A stretch of DNA of 64,000 nucleotides, from positions 1-64,000 of the forward strand of contig CANQDD010000014.1 in the NCBI GenBank assembly GCA_947591315.1, written 5' to 3'. Position numbers and translations under genes: made by a program. Of this stretch, positions 168 through 6,774 are shown piece by piece. Position 1 is the stretch's first letter; each line of letters starts with the position of its first letter. Source of the stretch: an uncultured Clostridia bacterium. Its GTDB lineage: Bacteria > Bacillota > Clostridia > UBA1381. The notes under the pieces are model-generated. The model made no database searches. It worked only from the letters and a program-made list of their open reading frames with translations, and had not been told where the DNA came from.

Positions 168-196
168 TTGACAGCAATTTAAATGAATGATATAAT
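168..196 (+). promoter_or_regulatory. Consensus sigma-A promoter of the sigma/WYL gene
   Basis: TTGACA at 168-173 and TATAAT at 191-196 are separated by exactly 17 bp, a perfect vegetative consensus. The predicted start of transcription near 203 leaves a leader of about 75 nt before the start codon at 278. A second TTGACA at 140-145 has no matching -10 box. Confidence 0.85.
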
Positions 197-202
197 TCTG
201 AT

Positions 203-212
203 ATACCGGTAT
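203..212 (+). promoter_or_regulatory. Palindromic putative operator at the start of transcription
   Basis: The 10-bp perfect palindrome ATACCGGTAT lies 6 bp after the -10 box, over the expected +1. A dimeric regulator bound there would block initiation. The downstream gene encodes a WYL regulator, so autoregulation is a reasonable inference. A second small hairpin (CACCGT/ACGGTG) lies at 248-264 just before the ribosome binding site. Confidence 0.4.
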
Positions 213-277
213 GATAAAATTGCGGCAGTTAAAACAGTTCACATTTCACCGTTTGTGACGGTGCGGGGGAGAGAAAT

Positions 278-1843
278 ATGGGAAAAGATATGACAAACCG
301 AGAGGTTAAGGAAGCGCTCGAAAAGGCAAAGTCAGGCGACGACGCGGCGTGGAAAAAGCTGTATGACCGATTTGAAAACTATGTTCATGACCGCGCGTGG
401 AAACGCTTGAAAAGGCTTAACATACCCGAATCGCGCAAAGGTGACGCCGAAAACGAGTTGTTTCAGGCGGGCTGGAAGGGATTTTTGTCCGCGGTTCGCA
501 ATTATGACCCCGAAAAGGGAGAGTTTTTGACTTACGCGACCTATTATATTGACGGGGAAATGTCGCGGGAGATTAAATTTATTATACATTCCCTTGAAAT
601 GACAAAGCAATCCGAGGATATTGATGATGCGGATTTGTTATCGGCGGAGGATAAAAAGTATTCCGTGGGCGACGCGCCCGACCAAGGAAAGTACAGCGCG
701 GAGCGGCGCGCGCTGCAAATCATGGAAATTCTGCGCCTTCTCACCGACGAGGAACACAGTCTGTCAAAGGACGAGCTGCGCCGTTTTCTTCGGATTTACC
801 GTATCGCAAAATACAATAACGGAACACCGATTGAAGCGCCGAACACGTTTACAAGCACGATTGAGGAAATTCTCTCCGAGGTCAATCCGACGGAATACAG
901 CGAGCAAAACGAGGATAAGTATAAAATAAAATACGAGGGATACAAGGAAAACCGCTTAAAAGCCAAGCGTGACAAGACAGGCGGAAAGAAGGCAGCCGCC
1001 GTGACCAACTTTTCATACGTGCATCTGTTCGGCTATGAGGAGCTTAACAGGCTGATTCAGATTGTCTGCCTTTCCGATATGCTTTCCGCCGAGGAGAAAA
1101 ACCGCATAGTTACAAAGCTCGTATCGACCGCCGGAGTATATTACAATACGCCGTTCCTCGACGGGGACAAACTGAAATTCAGCCCCACTGCGGTGCACGG
1201 AAGATTCAGCGGAAAAATAATTAAGGACAAGCGTCAGCTTTCCGAAAATATAAACCTCATTCAACGGGCAATAAACGGCTTATGTCAAATCCAATTCAAA
1301 TTCAACTGCTACACAGCCGACCACGAAATGACGCCGAAATCGGACTATATTCATACGTTAAGCCCGTATCATCTGGCGGTATACCATGACAATTACTATT
1401 GTATTGGGCTGAAACATGGCGATAAGCGTATCTGGCACTACCGTGTGGATCTTATGACGGATATTGAATTTGTCACGGACAAAAACGGAAAAAATGTAAC
1501 TATTGACGTTGACGCGTTCGAGGGACTGCCTATCAGCAACGCGTATTGGAACCCCGAAAAGTATATGTCGGAGCATCTTTACATGGCGTATGACGAGCCG
1601 AGGGATATTCACATAAAAATCCGTAACACGGACTACACAATCCTCCATGATTGGTTCGGAGACCATTACGAGAAAACGGATAAGCCGTGCGGGGACGGAT
1701 ACGATATTGTGAAGGTCAAGACCTCTCCTTCCATGATAGTGCATTGGGCAATGCAGTATGCCGGCGACGTTGAGATAACAGACGAGGATATTCGCGATAA
1801 AATACGGGACGAAATAAAAAAATTACGGGAAAAATACAAATAA
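278..1843 (+). CDS. Sigma-70 region 2 / WYL-domain regulator fusion
   Basis: This 521-residue protein joins two modules not usually found together. Residues about 15-105 resemble sigma-70 region 2, with the motifs ELFQAGWKGFLSAVRNYDP and YATYYIDGEMSREI (core-binding and -10-recognition helices). No region 4 follows. Residues about 143-205 look like the winged HTH of WYL regulators, beginning RALQIMEILRLL. A helical linker follows, then a WYL core at about 335-410 with SPYHLAVYHDNYYCIG and a YRVDLM strand, then a WCX-type C-terminus at about 445-515. WYL domains sense ligands, often nucleic acids, in defence or DNA-damage regulators. By inference this protein could direct RNA polymerase or bind DNA in response to a ligand. 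A GGGGGAG site precedes the ATG; M5 is an alternative start. It is monocistronic, with its own consensus promoter and terminator. Confidence 0.75.
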   Translation: MGKDMTNREVKEALEKAKSGDDAAWKKLYDRFENYVHDRAWKRLKRLNIPESRKGDAENELFQAGWKGFLSAVRNYDPEKGEFLTYATYYIDGEMSREIKFIIHSLEMTKQSEDIDDADLLSAEDKKYSVGDAPDQGKYSAERRALQIMEILRLLTDEEHSLSKDELRRFLRIYRIAKYNNGTPIEAPNTFTSTIEEILSEVNPTEYSEQNEDKYKIKYEGYKENRLKAKRDKTGGKKAAAVTNFSYVHLFGYEELNRLIQIVCLSDMLSAEEKNRIVTKLVSTAGVYYNTPFLDGDKLKFSPTAVHGRFSGKIIKDKRQLSENINLIQRAINGLCQIQFKFNCYTADHEMTPKSDYIHTLSPYHLAVYHDNYYCIGLKHGDKRIWHYRVDLMTDIEFVTDKNGKNVTIDVDAFEGLPISNAYWNPEKYMSEHLYMAYDEPRDIHIKIRNTDYTILHDWFGDHYEKTDKPCGDGYDIVKVKTSPSMIVHWAMQYAGDVEITDEDIRDKIRDEIKKLREKYK

Positions 1844-1870
1844 TTCACTTATCTTCAAAATTTTGAACAT

Positions 1871-1928
1871 AAAATCCTCCATAATATAGGTGAAACGGAA
1901 AATTCACTTATGTTACGGAGGTTTTTTT
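1871..1928 (+). terminator. Two-tier terminator after the sigma/WYL gene
   Basis: An outer CCTCC/GGAGG stem (1876-1880 with 1917-1921) encloses an inner TAGGTGAA/TTCACTTA stem and is followed by seven Ts. An 11-bp direct repeat AATTCACTTAT (1842-1852, 1901-1911) contributes to the inner arm. It probably ends the sigma/WYL transcript; the bipartite form could also switch. Confidence 0.6.
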
Positions 1929-2019: not shown

Positions 2020-2631
2020 ATGAATTTAGTCGGGGAAAGAGTCTGCCTGCGCAGTCTGGGGCGCGGCGCGGATAACGGAGACAGAGCGGCGTTTGTGACA
2101 AATATATTGAAGCGTGAGGTCGTTTATGCGAATGAGTTTGAAATGTATTACGGACTTAAATGCGCTCCGGAAACGCTGGCGCAGATAGACCTTGCCGATC
2201 CACTGTTTTTTGATATAGTGATACATGATATGTCAGACGGCGATATGAAAGCTTATGACGGAAGCGTGGGATATATCGGGCTTAGCGAACGCAAAGATGA
2301 CGTTTATGAGGCGGAAATATATATTTATCCGAAATTCCGCAGGAGAGGCTATGCCGAGGAAGCGATTGGTATACTGCTTGACCGCGCGTTTCGCGGCGCG
2401 CTCAGGGAAGGCTCCGAAGGTATCGCCGTTCGGGAAGTAACCGCTTCCGTTCGGGTGGAAAATGAGCCGTCACGGGCTCTTATGGAAAAAATCGGGTTTG
2501 AGTGTGACGAAAAAGGAATACTTATGCCGGTTGTTGTTTCGGAATACGCGCTTGACGGTATGCTGCGGCTTGTAAATTACCGTATGACAAGGGAGCGTTT
2601 CGAGCGCCTTGCGGCGCGGCAGGAACAGTAA
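2020..2631 (+). CDS. GNAT-family N-acetyltransferase (RimJ/RimL-like)
   Basis: This 203-residue protein has the GNAT fold order. The N-terminus MNLVGERVCLRSL is typical of RimJ/RimL-type acetyltransferases. The acetyl-CoA loop is KFRRRGYAEEAIGILLDRAF at about residues 107-126 (Q/R-x-x-G-x-A type). A later strand, TASVRVENEPSRALMEKIGF, matches motif B, where such enzymes place the conserved Asn and the GF turn. The family moves an acetyl group from acetyl-CoA to an amine; the substrate cannot be read from sequence. An AAGGA site precedes the ATG. It stands alone between the sigma/WYL gene and an AT-rich gene that has its own promoter. A housekeeping or antibiotic-type role cannot be separated. 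Confidence 0.75.
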   Translation: MNLVGERVCLRSLGRGADNGDRAAFVTNILKREVVYANEFEMYYGLKCAPETLAQIDLADPLFFDIVIHDMSDGDMKAYDGSVGYIGLSERKDDVYEAEIYIYPKFRRRGYAEEAIGILLDRAFRGALREGSEGIAVREVTASVRVENEPSRALMEKIGFECDEKGILMPVVVSEYALDGMLRLVNYRMTRERFERLAARQEQ

Positions 2632-3431: not shown

Positions 3432-3451
3432 ACGTGATAGGAGAAATTTAT

Positions 3452-4150
3452 ATGAGCATATACATAACCGGTGACACGCACCGATATTTTGACAAGGTTT
3501 ACTACGCCTGCGTGGAATATGCGACAATGCCCGACGATATAATGATAATTCTTGGCGACGCGGGAATAAACTACTATCTCGGCGAATCGGACGCGGCGCT
3601 TAAAGAAGAATTGCGCGGCTATCCGATAACGATGTTTATGATTCACGGCAACCATGAGGAGCGCCCGTCGGAGATCGACACGTATGAGATAAAGCGCTGG
3701 CACGGCGGACTTGTATATTACGAGAAGGAATACCCCAATCTGCTGTTCGCGATTGACGGCGAGATTTACGACTTTGACGGCAGAACGGCGATAGCGATAG
3801 GCGGCGCGTATTCCGTGGACAAGTACGCGCGTTTCATGTCGGGAGAGCCGTGGTTTGACACAGAGCAGCCGTCGGAGGAAATAAAGGAGCGTGTGGAGCG
3901 TCAACTTGACAAGGCAAACTGGAGCGTGGATTTTGTTTTGTCGCACACGTGCCCGAAAAAGTACGAGCCGACGCACGCTTTTATCCCTGGCTTGGATCAG
4001 AGTACGGTCGACAAATCAACCGAGGAATGGCTCGACACGATAGAGGAACGGCTCGACTACGACCGCTGGTACTGCGGACATTACCACATTGACTACGAGG
4101 AATGCGCGGTTCGTTTTATGTTTGACGACGTTGAAGAACTGGACAGTTAA
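3452..4150 (+). CDS. Calcineurin-like metallophosphoesterase
   Basis: This 232-residue enzyme carries the ordered metal ligands of the calcineurin-like family: ITGDTHRYF (DxH) at the N-terminus, ILGDAGINYY (GDxx), MIHGNHEE (GNHE), LSHTCPKK (H) and WYCGHYHID (GHxH). Such proteins bind two divalent metals and cleave phosphoesters; the substrate is not evident. I place the start at the ATG at 3452 because GGAG at 3440-3443 lies 8 nt upstream; the in-frame GTG at 3434 has no ribosome site. There is no signal peptide, so it is cytoplasmic. It follows the AT-rich gene closely and may share its promoter, although its own codon use is GC-rich. Confidence 0.85.
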   Translation: MSIYITGDTHRYFDKVYYACVEYATMPDDIMIILGDAGINYYLGESDAALKEELRGYPITMFMIHGNHEERPSEIDTYEIKRWHGGLVYYEKEYPNLLFAIDGEIYDFDGRTAIAIGGAYSVDKYARFMSGEPWFDTEQPSEEIKERVERQLDKANWSVDFVLSHTCPKKYEPTHAFIPGLDQSTVDKSTEEWLDTIEERLDYDRWYCGHYHIDYEECAVRFMFDDVEELDS

Positions 4151-4674: not shown

Positions 4675-6756
4675 TCAATAATTTTCGGCGTGAACCTCGA
4701 AGAAACTCTGCGGATGATTGCACACGGGGCAAACCTCCGGCGCTTTCGTGCCGACGCAGATGTGACCGCAGTTGCGGCATTCCCAAACCTTAACCTCGCT
4801 CTTTTCAAACACCTGTGCCGTCTCGATGTTTTTGAGCAGAGCGCGGTAACGCTCCTCGTGATGCTTCTCAATTTCCGCAACGGCGCGGAATTTAGCCGCA
4901 AGCTCCGTAAAGCCTTCCTTCTCGGCAGTGTCCGCAAAGCCCGCGTACATATCAGTCCACTCGTAATTCTCGCCGTCAGCCGCTTCCTTCAGATTTTCGG
5001 AAGTGCTGCCGATGCCGTTAAGCTCCTTGAACCACATCTTCGCGTGTTCCTTCTCGTTGTCGGCGGTCTTTAAAAACAGCGCCGACATCTGCTCGTAACC
5101 CTCTTTCTTCGCGACCGACGCGAAATAGGTGTACTTGTTCCTCGCCTGAGACTCGCCCGCAAATGCCGCCTCAAGGTTCTTTTCCGTCTGTGTTCCCGCG
5201 TACTTGTTTGTTTTCATTTCCTTTACCTCCTCTAATTTATCTCCCGTTGACTTGCAGAGCGGACATACCGCCGTTTCGCCTTCGGGTACTTCAAACACTT
5301 CTCCGCATACCTTGCACCTGTACTTTTTCATGCCTTTACGCTCCTTTTTAATATTAACCGCCGCGTCGCCCGCGTGCTTTATGCCCGTGTATTTCGCTAT
5401 ATCCGCGTCGGTCGTTACAAGGTCGCCCACGGACAGCCCGTGAACCGACGTATGCCCGGTTACTCTTGCGAACGTTTTTAATTCCGCGAGCGACACGTTT
5501 AGATAATTCGCCGTTCTCTGCGCCGCCGCGTCCTCGTTCAGCCGCTTGCGCAGCTCGGGATCCTGCGTCGCGACACCGACGGGACATTTACCGCTTCCGC
5601 ATATTCTGTACTGCTGACACGCCGCCGCAATCAGCGCGCCGCTTGCCACAGCTACCGCGTCCGCGCCCATTGCAAGCGCCTTCGCGAAATCGGCGCTGAC
5701 GCGCAGTCCGCCCGTTATGACAAGTGAAATATCGGAATTTACGCTGTCAAGATATTTCCTTGCGCGAGAGAGCGCGTAAATCGTCGGGACGGTCGACGCC
5801 TCGCGCAGAAAATACGGACTTGAACCCGTCGCGCCGCCGCGCCCGTCGATCGTGATAAAATCGGGCTCGGCGTAAACGCAGTGCTCCAAATCATCTTCAA
5901 TATGCCCCGCCGCGATTTTAATTCCTATCGGTCTGCCCTCCGACCGCTCGCGCAGCATCGAAACCATAGCCTTCAAATCCTCTTTGGAGTTTATCTCCGC
6001 GAATTTGCTCGGACTTTGAATATCCTCGCCCGGCTTCCTTCCGCGTATAGCGGCAACCTCCGGCGTTACCTTTTCACCGGGCAGATGACCGCCCATACCG
6101 GGTTTTGTGCCCTGCCCGATTTTAATTTCAACCGCGTCGGACGTTTTGAGGTTTTCGTCGGTGACGCTGTACTTATTCGGAATATACTCGAATATGTACT
6201 TGTACGCCGCCGCCTTTTCCTCCGGCAGTATGCCGCCCTCGCCGCTGCACACAGCCGTTTTCGCCATAGCCGAGCCTTTTGCGAGAGCCGTCTTGACCTC
6301 CTTTGAAAGCGCGCCGAACGACATGTGCGATATGTACACGGGACTTTCCAAAATCATCGGCTTTTTCGCATGCTTGCCTATCACCGTGCGCGTGTCAACG
6401 CTGTCATCGTCATTTAGCGGCGGCGGGTTAAGCTGCGCGCCGAGAATAAGAATATCCTCCCACTTCGGCAGCGGAAGCCGCGTACCCATAGCCGCGCTGA
6501 TGTAATGACCGGTCACAGCCATTTCGTGAATTTCAGCCATGTACCGCGCCGACGGATCGCTTCGCGCGAACCGCGCGTCGTACGCAAGCTCGCCGTCATA
6601 CGTCTCAGCGTCCGCCGCCTGTTTCGGCTCGTCTATAAGAACGAACTTCGACGGCGGCTGTCCGCACACGGGACACGCCTTAAGCTCCGAAAACGGCTTG
6701 CCTTCCTTTTCCTCGTCGTAAATTGCACCGCACACGCTGCATCTGTAAACTGCCAT
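4675..6756 (-). CDS. Rubredoxin / FMN glutamate-synthase-like / rubrerythrin fusion
   Basis: One uninterrupted 693-codon frame encodes parts usually made as separate proteins. Residues 1-40 are a rubredoxin (CSVCG and CPVCG iron knuckles). Residues about 65-455 are a glutamate-synthase large-subunit-like FMN domain with [28 protein letters not shown] and the cluster cysteines in [14 protein letters not shown] second rubredoxin-like knuckle (CKVCG, CPLCK) spans 476-511. Rubrerythrin follows from 514, with diiron helices [15 protein letters not shown] and [10 protein letters not shown], and a last rubredoxin (CRNCG, CPVCN). It likely detoxifies peroxide while passing electrons between flavin and iron sites. 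ATG 6756 has AGGAGG 7 nt upstream; a GTG at 6762 is less likely. The stop codons expected between modules are absent, yet two internal starts with strong Shine-Dalgarno sites remain. It follows perR by 18 bp. Confidence 0.85.
5217..5231 (-). promoter_or_regulatory. Internal ribosome site and start for rubrerythrin alone
   Basis: Inside the fusion frame, AGGAGG (complement of 5226-5231) lies 8 nt before an in-frame ATG at 5217. Initiation there would make a 180-residue rubrerythrin, the usual family length. The site is as strong as any true start in the window. Confidence 0.6.
5331..5346 (-). promoter_or_regulatory. Internal ribosome site before the second rubredoxin knuckle
   Basis: AAGGAG (complement of 5341-5346) lies 9 nt before an in-frame ATG at 5331, giving a product that begins [13 protein letters not shown]. 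This would be a 218-residue rubredoxin-rubrerythrin. Confidence 0.55.
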
Positions 6757-6774
6757 ACACACTCCTCCTTTACG

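Follow-up and report, generated by a model that had tools for sequence, protein, structure and literature searches.

Several described systems each share part of the design reported here. DriD of Caulobacter and PafBC of Mycobacterium have the order winged helix-turn-helix (wHTH), WYL and WCX, and their sites lie within or close to the -35 region, with a fixed spacing to the -10 element: a DriD dimer can sit on the -35 element itself (PMC12340889), and PafBC can come between the DNA and region 4 of the sigma factor (PMC11804915). Both bind ssDNA. Both, however, use the housekeeping sigma holoenzyme and neither contains a sigma domain. Region 2 alone can open promoters in bacteriophage T4, where gp55, acting with gp33 and gp45, is a factor made of sigma region 2 only that works on a -10-like box (PMC7892883); this system consists of separate proteins, is activated by a sliding clamp, uses no -35 sequence and has neither wHTH nor ligand sensor. 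In Bacillus subtilis, SigO and RsoA show that a sigma factor can have its regions 2 and 4 on separate chains, region 4 being given in trans there (PMC8103513). ECF factors with fused regulatory domains, such as ECF41 and CorE-like proteins, join a sigma factor and a sensing extension in one chain but retain both regions 2 and 4 (PMC8999054), and PhyR carries an N-terminal sigma-like domain on a regulator whose own core and promoter contacts are degenerate, which makes it a sigma mimic (PMC8103513). The fusion described below would combine features of DriD, PafBC and T4 gp55 in one protein. Our searches of open-licence papers on WYL together with sigma returned no description of such a fusion, which is not proof of novelty.

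Sigma region 2 and a WYL regulator in a single gene

The window analysed here is a stretch of 64,000 nucleotides from an uncultured Clostridia bacterium (GCA_947591315.1, contig CANQDD010000014.1, positions 1-64,000 of the forward strand). Near its start lies a single unbroken open reading frame of 521 residues with the following features:

168-220, forward strand: probable sigmaA promoters of the fusion gene, TTGACA (168-173), 17 nt, TATAAT (191-196), and TGATAAAAT (212-220), the latter conserved in an alignment of four orthologous upstream regions
278-1843, forward strand: sigma2-WYL fusion gene, 521 aa
296-586, forward strand: sigma-70 region 2 domain, aa 7-103
587-691, forward strand: disordered variable linker, aa 104-138
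692-982, forward strand: winged HTH of the WYL regulator, aa 139-235
983-1222, forward strand: helical connector between wHTH and WYL, aa 236-315, from the secondary structure of the model
1223-1507, forward strand: WYL domain, aa 316-410
1550-1840, forward strand: WCX C-terminal extension, aa 425-521

Both halves were recognised by Pfam above their cut-offs: Sigma70_r2 at residues 41-99 (E 2.9e-6, 27.4 bits, cut-off 24) and WYL at residues 324-397 (E 1.7e-6, 28.3 bits, cut-off 21.8). WCX fell below its cut-off in the window protein (E 0.06), scored better in homologues and is matched structurally by the C-terminal domain of DriD. According to this, the joining of sigma region 2 to a WYL regulator, read at first from the sequence alone, was confirmed, and the search for the same domain order which that reading had proposed returned about 30 homologues. 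An assembly artefact or frame fusion was ruled out, as tens of independent assemblies carry the fusion, among them those of Eubacterium ruminantium FB3002 and of the Lachnospiraceae strains NC2008 and AB2028.

The AlphaFold2 model of the fusion protein, built with 35 family members (mean pLDDT 76, pTM 0.48), has four N-terminal helices (7-18, 22-45, 51-75 and 83-106), a disordered stretch at 105-136 (pLDDT below 50), a helical HTH region and then the WYL/WCX part; because of the pTM of 0.48, the model does not fix the placing of the sigma half relative to the WYL half. Residues ~1-104 superpose on Staphylococcus aureus SigB (8x6g; Z 13.9, rmsd 1.6 Å over 90 residues) and on Escherichia coli sigmaS (5ipl; Z 12.7). 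The proposal that the N-terminus folds as region 2 thus has strong computational support, and the contrary result of structure prediction, an N-terminus folded otherwise, was not obtained. Residues 138-521 match DriD, PafBC, CapW and BrxR, the wHTH from the N-termini of DriD, CapW and BrxR and the WYL domain with BrxR 7qfz over residues 311-421 (Z 11.4); the connector would be the positional counterpart of the DriD 3HB. Across homologues the linker varies from 35 to 102 residues between the same two anchor columns, and no conserved charge or sigma-finger-like motif was found in it. Its net charge of -10 to +7 gives no support for a conserved acidic linker like sigma 3.2. The promoter of the gene itself looks like a sigmaA one, which makes it probable that the protein is produced constitutively and works on the genes downstream.

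Scanning genome contigs yielded 40 loci, of which about 30 encode full-length homologues with the same order, 38-89% identical, mostly from Lachnospiraceae and other Clostridia of rabbit gut and rumen, isolates included. Pfam finds WYL in all of 35 aligned members and Sigma70_r2 in 29, the 35 including five sigma-less halves of a two-gene form. The distribution is rare and patchy, with 3 of 70 genomes in the family of the window, 3 of 95 in its order and 3 of 391 sampled from its class; some form of match, fused or sigma-less, occurs in 9 of 397 Lachnospiraceae. A phage or plasmid origin was considered and rejected: no full-length relative was found among phages, plasmids or viral contigs, and viral contigs held no exact copy of the motif described below. 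The fused gene, or its WYL/WCX part, was also seen in broken or incomplete form (L058 7983-9690; L100 4760-5089; L101 2818-3033; L102 17349-17582), pointing to turnover of these loci.

Conservation of region 2, absence of region 4 and the two-gene relatives

Region 2 is under purifying selection (dN/dS 0.14-0.32) and evolves faster than the WYL/WCX part (mean identity to the window protein 48% versus 62-69%). In sigma70 numbering and counted over 33 fused members, the core- or promoter-facing positions D/E403, L404 and G408 are kept in all 33 and G411 in 29; T429 is present in 32, position 430 is Y or F in all 33 and position 434, W in sigma70, is aromatic in 30. On the other hand, E407 and N409 are replaced (A, W), position 406 is Q in 13 of the 33 and position 433 is often non-aromatic. 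FliA and SigF likewise differ at 407 and 409. The sequence-only reading had singled out clamp-contact residues missing across homologues as a finding that would count against it; instead, most core-facing positions are conserved. This bears on the idea that the domain is a degenerate sigma mimic, in which region 2 would have given up its contacts with polymerase and promoter and would bind a different regulator instead, in the manner of PhyR and its sigma-like domain (PMC8103513). Beyond this precedent the idea can draw on the changed clamp positions; it is at odds with the retention of D/E403, L404, G408 and the T429-A431 motif across the family and with the absence of any recognised anti-sigma-like neighbour, and we hold it to be very improbable.

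All ~30 homologues keep the order region 2, linker, wHTH, WYL, WCX, and none has region 4. A region 4 hidden between region 2 and WYL was ruled out, because stand-alone WYL partners (L066-L069, L071) align to this stretch with their N-terminus and a region-4 HMM was blank over it. Nor was a region 4 supplied in trans found nearby: ORF and HMM searches found no region-4-like reading frame in any fused locus, and an HMM of the region 4 of the two-gene form matched, among the loci searched, that form only. The fused loci therefore differ from the SigO-RsoA arrangement in that region 4 is absent and a wHTH of another family is present instead, and from T4 gp55 in that the C-terminus is WYL/WCX and a palindrome lies in the -35 region. 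As region 4 is missing from chain and locus, the protein is not classed as an ECF or a group 1-3 sigma factor.

Region 4 was found only in relatives that hold the two parts as separate genes. In loci L066, L067, L069 and L071 the WYL protein lacks region 2, and a sigma gene of 185-214 aa lies directly upstream, overlapping it or within 14 nt. The family HMM finds region 2 in these sigma genes (E 2e-12 to 4e-19), which also encode a region-4-like HTH. The model of the split sigma is weak (pLDDT 63, with region 2 reaching only Z 7.7 against sigma28), and its region 4 was recognised from sequence, with Pfam Sigma70_r4 matches below cut-off (E 3.7e-5 and 0.003); the L071 sigma has no region 4 match in Pfam. 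In a tree of the WYL part these four split members form a clade with L101, which is fused and has lost region 4: its N-terminal stretch matches the L071 sigma at 41% over 113 alignment columns, and residues 144-563 of L101 match the L071 WYL protein over almost its full length at 55%. Unless L071 was split again, region 4 would have been lost twice on fusion, and L101 would represent an independent second fusion. Locus L068 shows a different state, as only the region 4 half of a split sigma is left (5700-6409), directly after the end of a carB gene, by deletion or assembly error. Additionally, L096-L099 are four more remote WYL relatives without a neighbouring sigma gene, and some of them adjoin similar kinds of cargo, a phosphoesterase and, as judged by motif, a probable DUF6994-like protein.

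A candidate promoter element linked to the gene

A repeat between the downstream genes was resolved as TTCAAAATTTTGAA, 11 nt, CCATAATA. The complete element consists of a palindrome, ATCTTCAAAATTTTGAAGAT, centred at -31.5, 11 nt from its core to CCATAATA, and then G at +1. In the window it reads as follows:

1851-1870, forward strand: 20-bp palindrome from -41 to -22, occupying the -35 region of the candidate target promoter; an exact core match in the window with 0 expected
1880-1885, forward strand: -10 element CATAAT, its first base being the C at -12; transcription is predicted to start (+1) at the G in 1892

The 33 fused loci carry 45 co-oriented copies with the spacing of 11, compared with 0-2 in first-order Markov simulations and at most 2 copies at each of the other spacings from 6 to 18 on the same strand. 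The element is present in 27 of these loci, and a contig end truncates two of the six lacking it. Its core shows symmetry and in some loci carries matched changes on both arms, for example TGCAAAATTTTGCA. With CATAAT set at -12 to -7, position -1 is T in 96% and position +1 is G in 87%, which is normal start-site geometry.

The motif was defined from the same loci, and its genome-wide linkage and a control pattern provide independent tests. In nine whole genomes all 17 sites (at most 3 mismatches) lie downstream of the gene, on its strand and within ~11 kb, while the reversed control gave 1. Of 70 genomes in the family of the window, only the three gene-bearing ones contain exact copies. In 397 Lachnospiraceae (at most 2 mismatches), sites were found in three gene-bearing genomes, in a further one beside a decayed C-terminal fragment, and at one contig end, with two more sites elsewhere at 2 mismatches and 4 matches for the control pattern. 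Genomes without the gene thus lack the element, bar near-chance matches. In the relatives, three split loci (L067-L069) carry CCATAATA, and L068 and L069 also have the same palindrome geometry. The sigma-less L096 and L097 repeat a different element, ending in TGnTATAAT; such a TATAAT-type repeated element occurs in these two of the four sigma-less loci, and the other two have no repeated element.

Since BrxR and CapW are WYL proteins that act as repressors, the palindrome from -41 to -22 could be an operator that blocks the downstream promoters until ligand releases the protein, with region 2 serving as decoy or anchor. Its overlap with the -35 region fits this. However, the sites show no apparent -35 hexamer for sigmaA, which would leave a repressor little to act on; the fixed 11-nt spacing to the -10 box is as expected for polymerase contacts, whereas operators would tolerate shifts, and repression would leave region 2 without a role. 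We rate a repressor as improbable.

The main rival is a conventional WYL activator, whose dimer on the palindrome would recruit the sigmaA holoenzyme; the latter would read CATAAT, one base away from TATAAT, and region 2 would add a contact to DNA or polymerase without replacing sigmaA. The position of the palindrome is not in itself proof of sigma function, because DriD, at the -35 element and a fixed distance from -10 (PMC12340889), and PafBC, inserted between DNA and sigma4 (PMC11804915), work there with the ordinary holoenzyme. What argues against such an activator is, first, position -12, which is C in 45 of 45 sites even though the search accepted the T of sigmaA, and which sigmaA reads with Q437 and T440. 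In the fused family these two positions are mostly G (437) and S or A (440), while the RpoD of the window genome retains Q437 and T440. In sigma70, Q437H and T440I suppress a T-to-C change at -12 (PMC2613000), so the C together with the altered 437/440 fits reading of -12 by the attached region 2, as a correlation. Against such reading stands a site with T at -12 at a contig end (G724; L112 83-115, at the contig start), before a methyltransferase-like gene and with no regulator visible up to where the contig ends. Second, region 2 is conserved and constrained, and third, in the two-gene relatives the neighbour of the WYL gene encodes a sigma factor that has both region 2 and region 4. On balance we consider the activator unlikely, and it is probable that the protein is a one-chain sigma-like factor in which region 2 reads the -10 box and a dimer of the WYL wHTH replaces region 4. 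The earlier suggestion that the HTH stands in for region 4 gains strong computational support in this way, from the absence of region 4 and from a matching promoter with a dimer-type palindrome in the -35 region.

Downstream genes and the proposed mode of initiation

The window further has a hairpin that takes in the -10 region of the element and, downstream of it, the predicted targets:

1876-1928, forward strand: hairpin (1876-1921) in which the -10 region pairs with GGAGG, and T7 after it
2020-2631, forward strand: GNAT acetyltransferase, first predicted target (Pfam Acetyltransf_3, 3.6e-13); the same downstream cluster is found in L039-L041
2703-3431, forward strand: uncharacterised protein, predicted target, with no confident Pfam match; it adjoins the gene in L039 and L041 too
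3434-4150, forward strand: calcineurin-like phosphoesterase, predicted target (Pfam Metallophos, 8e-10), gene cluster in 10 loci

Across loci the downstream genes are co-oriented and mosaic, including phosphoesterases, an NT5C-type nucleotidase, acetyltransferases, HD, AAA and DUF6994-like proteins and unknowns; a literature search on DUF6994 returned no functional paper. A known defence system was not recognised, as PADLOC finds the WYL protein itself and only weak matches in the cargo. From the enzyme types we would guess at a shared role in nucleotide or nucleic-acid stress. By eye, a 695-aa reading frame on the minus strand of the window (4675-6762) appears to hold rubredoxin, glutamate-synthase-like, rubredoxin and rubrerythrin parts in one chain.

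The hairpin has a folding energy of -22.7 kcal/mol (z -6.1), against -2.6 when the RNA starts at +1; as the -10 region is one of its arms, it forms in read-through RNA only and may insulate the target genes from upstream transcription. Similar hairpins between the -10 region and GGAGG (Shine-Dalgarno), some with a T-run, are found in L039, L040, L041, L043, L053, L060, L063, L064, L101 and L102. Other sites have a short hairpin and T-run straight after the predicted +1 (L049 10461, L050 3658, L055 11911, L056 10826, L059 11007, L048 9668 and others), a layout that would suit a very short RNA or a leader with attenuation. Rfam searches of the sites in six loci matched tRNAs only.

All these data suggest that the protein is a single-chain, probably dimeric initiation factor. 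Its WYL-type wHTH dimer would bind the palindrome centred at -31.5, where sigma region 4 would otherwise sit, while the attached region 2 would dock on the polymerase clamp and recognise and melt the -10 box CATAAT with its C at -12. The WYL domain would gate initiation through a nucleic-acid-type ligand, and the targets would be the genes directly downstream, namely the acetyltransferase, the phosphoesterase and other cargo. We lean slightly towards the broader proposal of a new sigma class, in which region 4 was replaced at least twice independently by a ligand-gated WYL dimer, with its own promoter code (palindrome at -31.5, 11 nt, CATAAT with C at -12) and a read-through hairpin protecting the targets.

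If this is true, sigma factor and activator would be one molecule, and the sensed ligand would pick the promoter directly, with neither anti-sigma factor nor housekeeping sigma. The promoter code would be precise enough for an immediate test and might provide an orthogonal expression part in Clostridia. Furthermore, the three arrangements, WYL alone, sigma and WYL as two genes, and the fusion without region 4, would trace a readable path of origin. The fusion, together with an adjacent, matching and otherwise unseen promoter, suggests a new way for bacteria to choose which genes to express.
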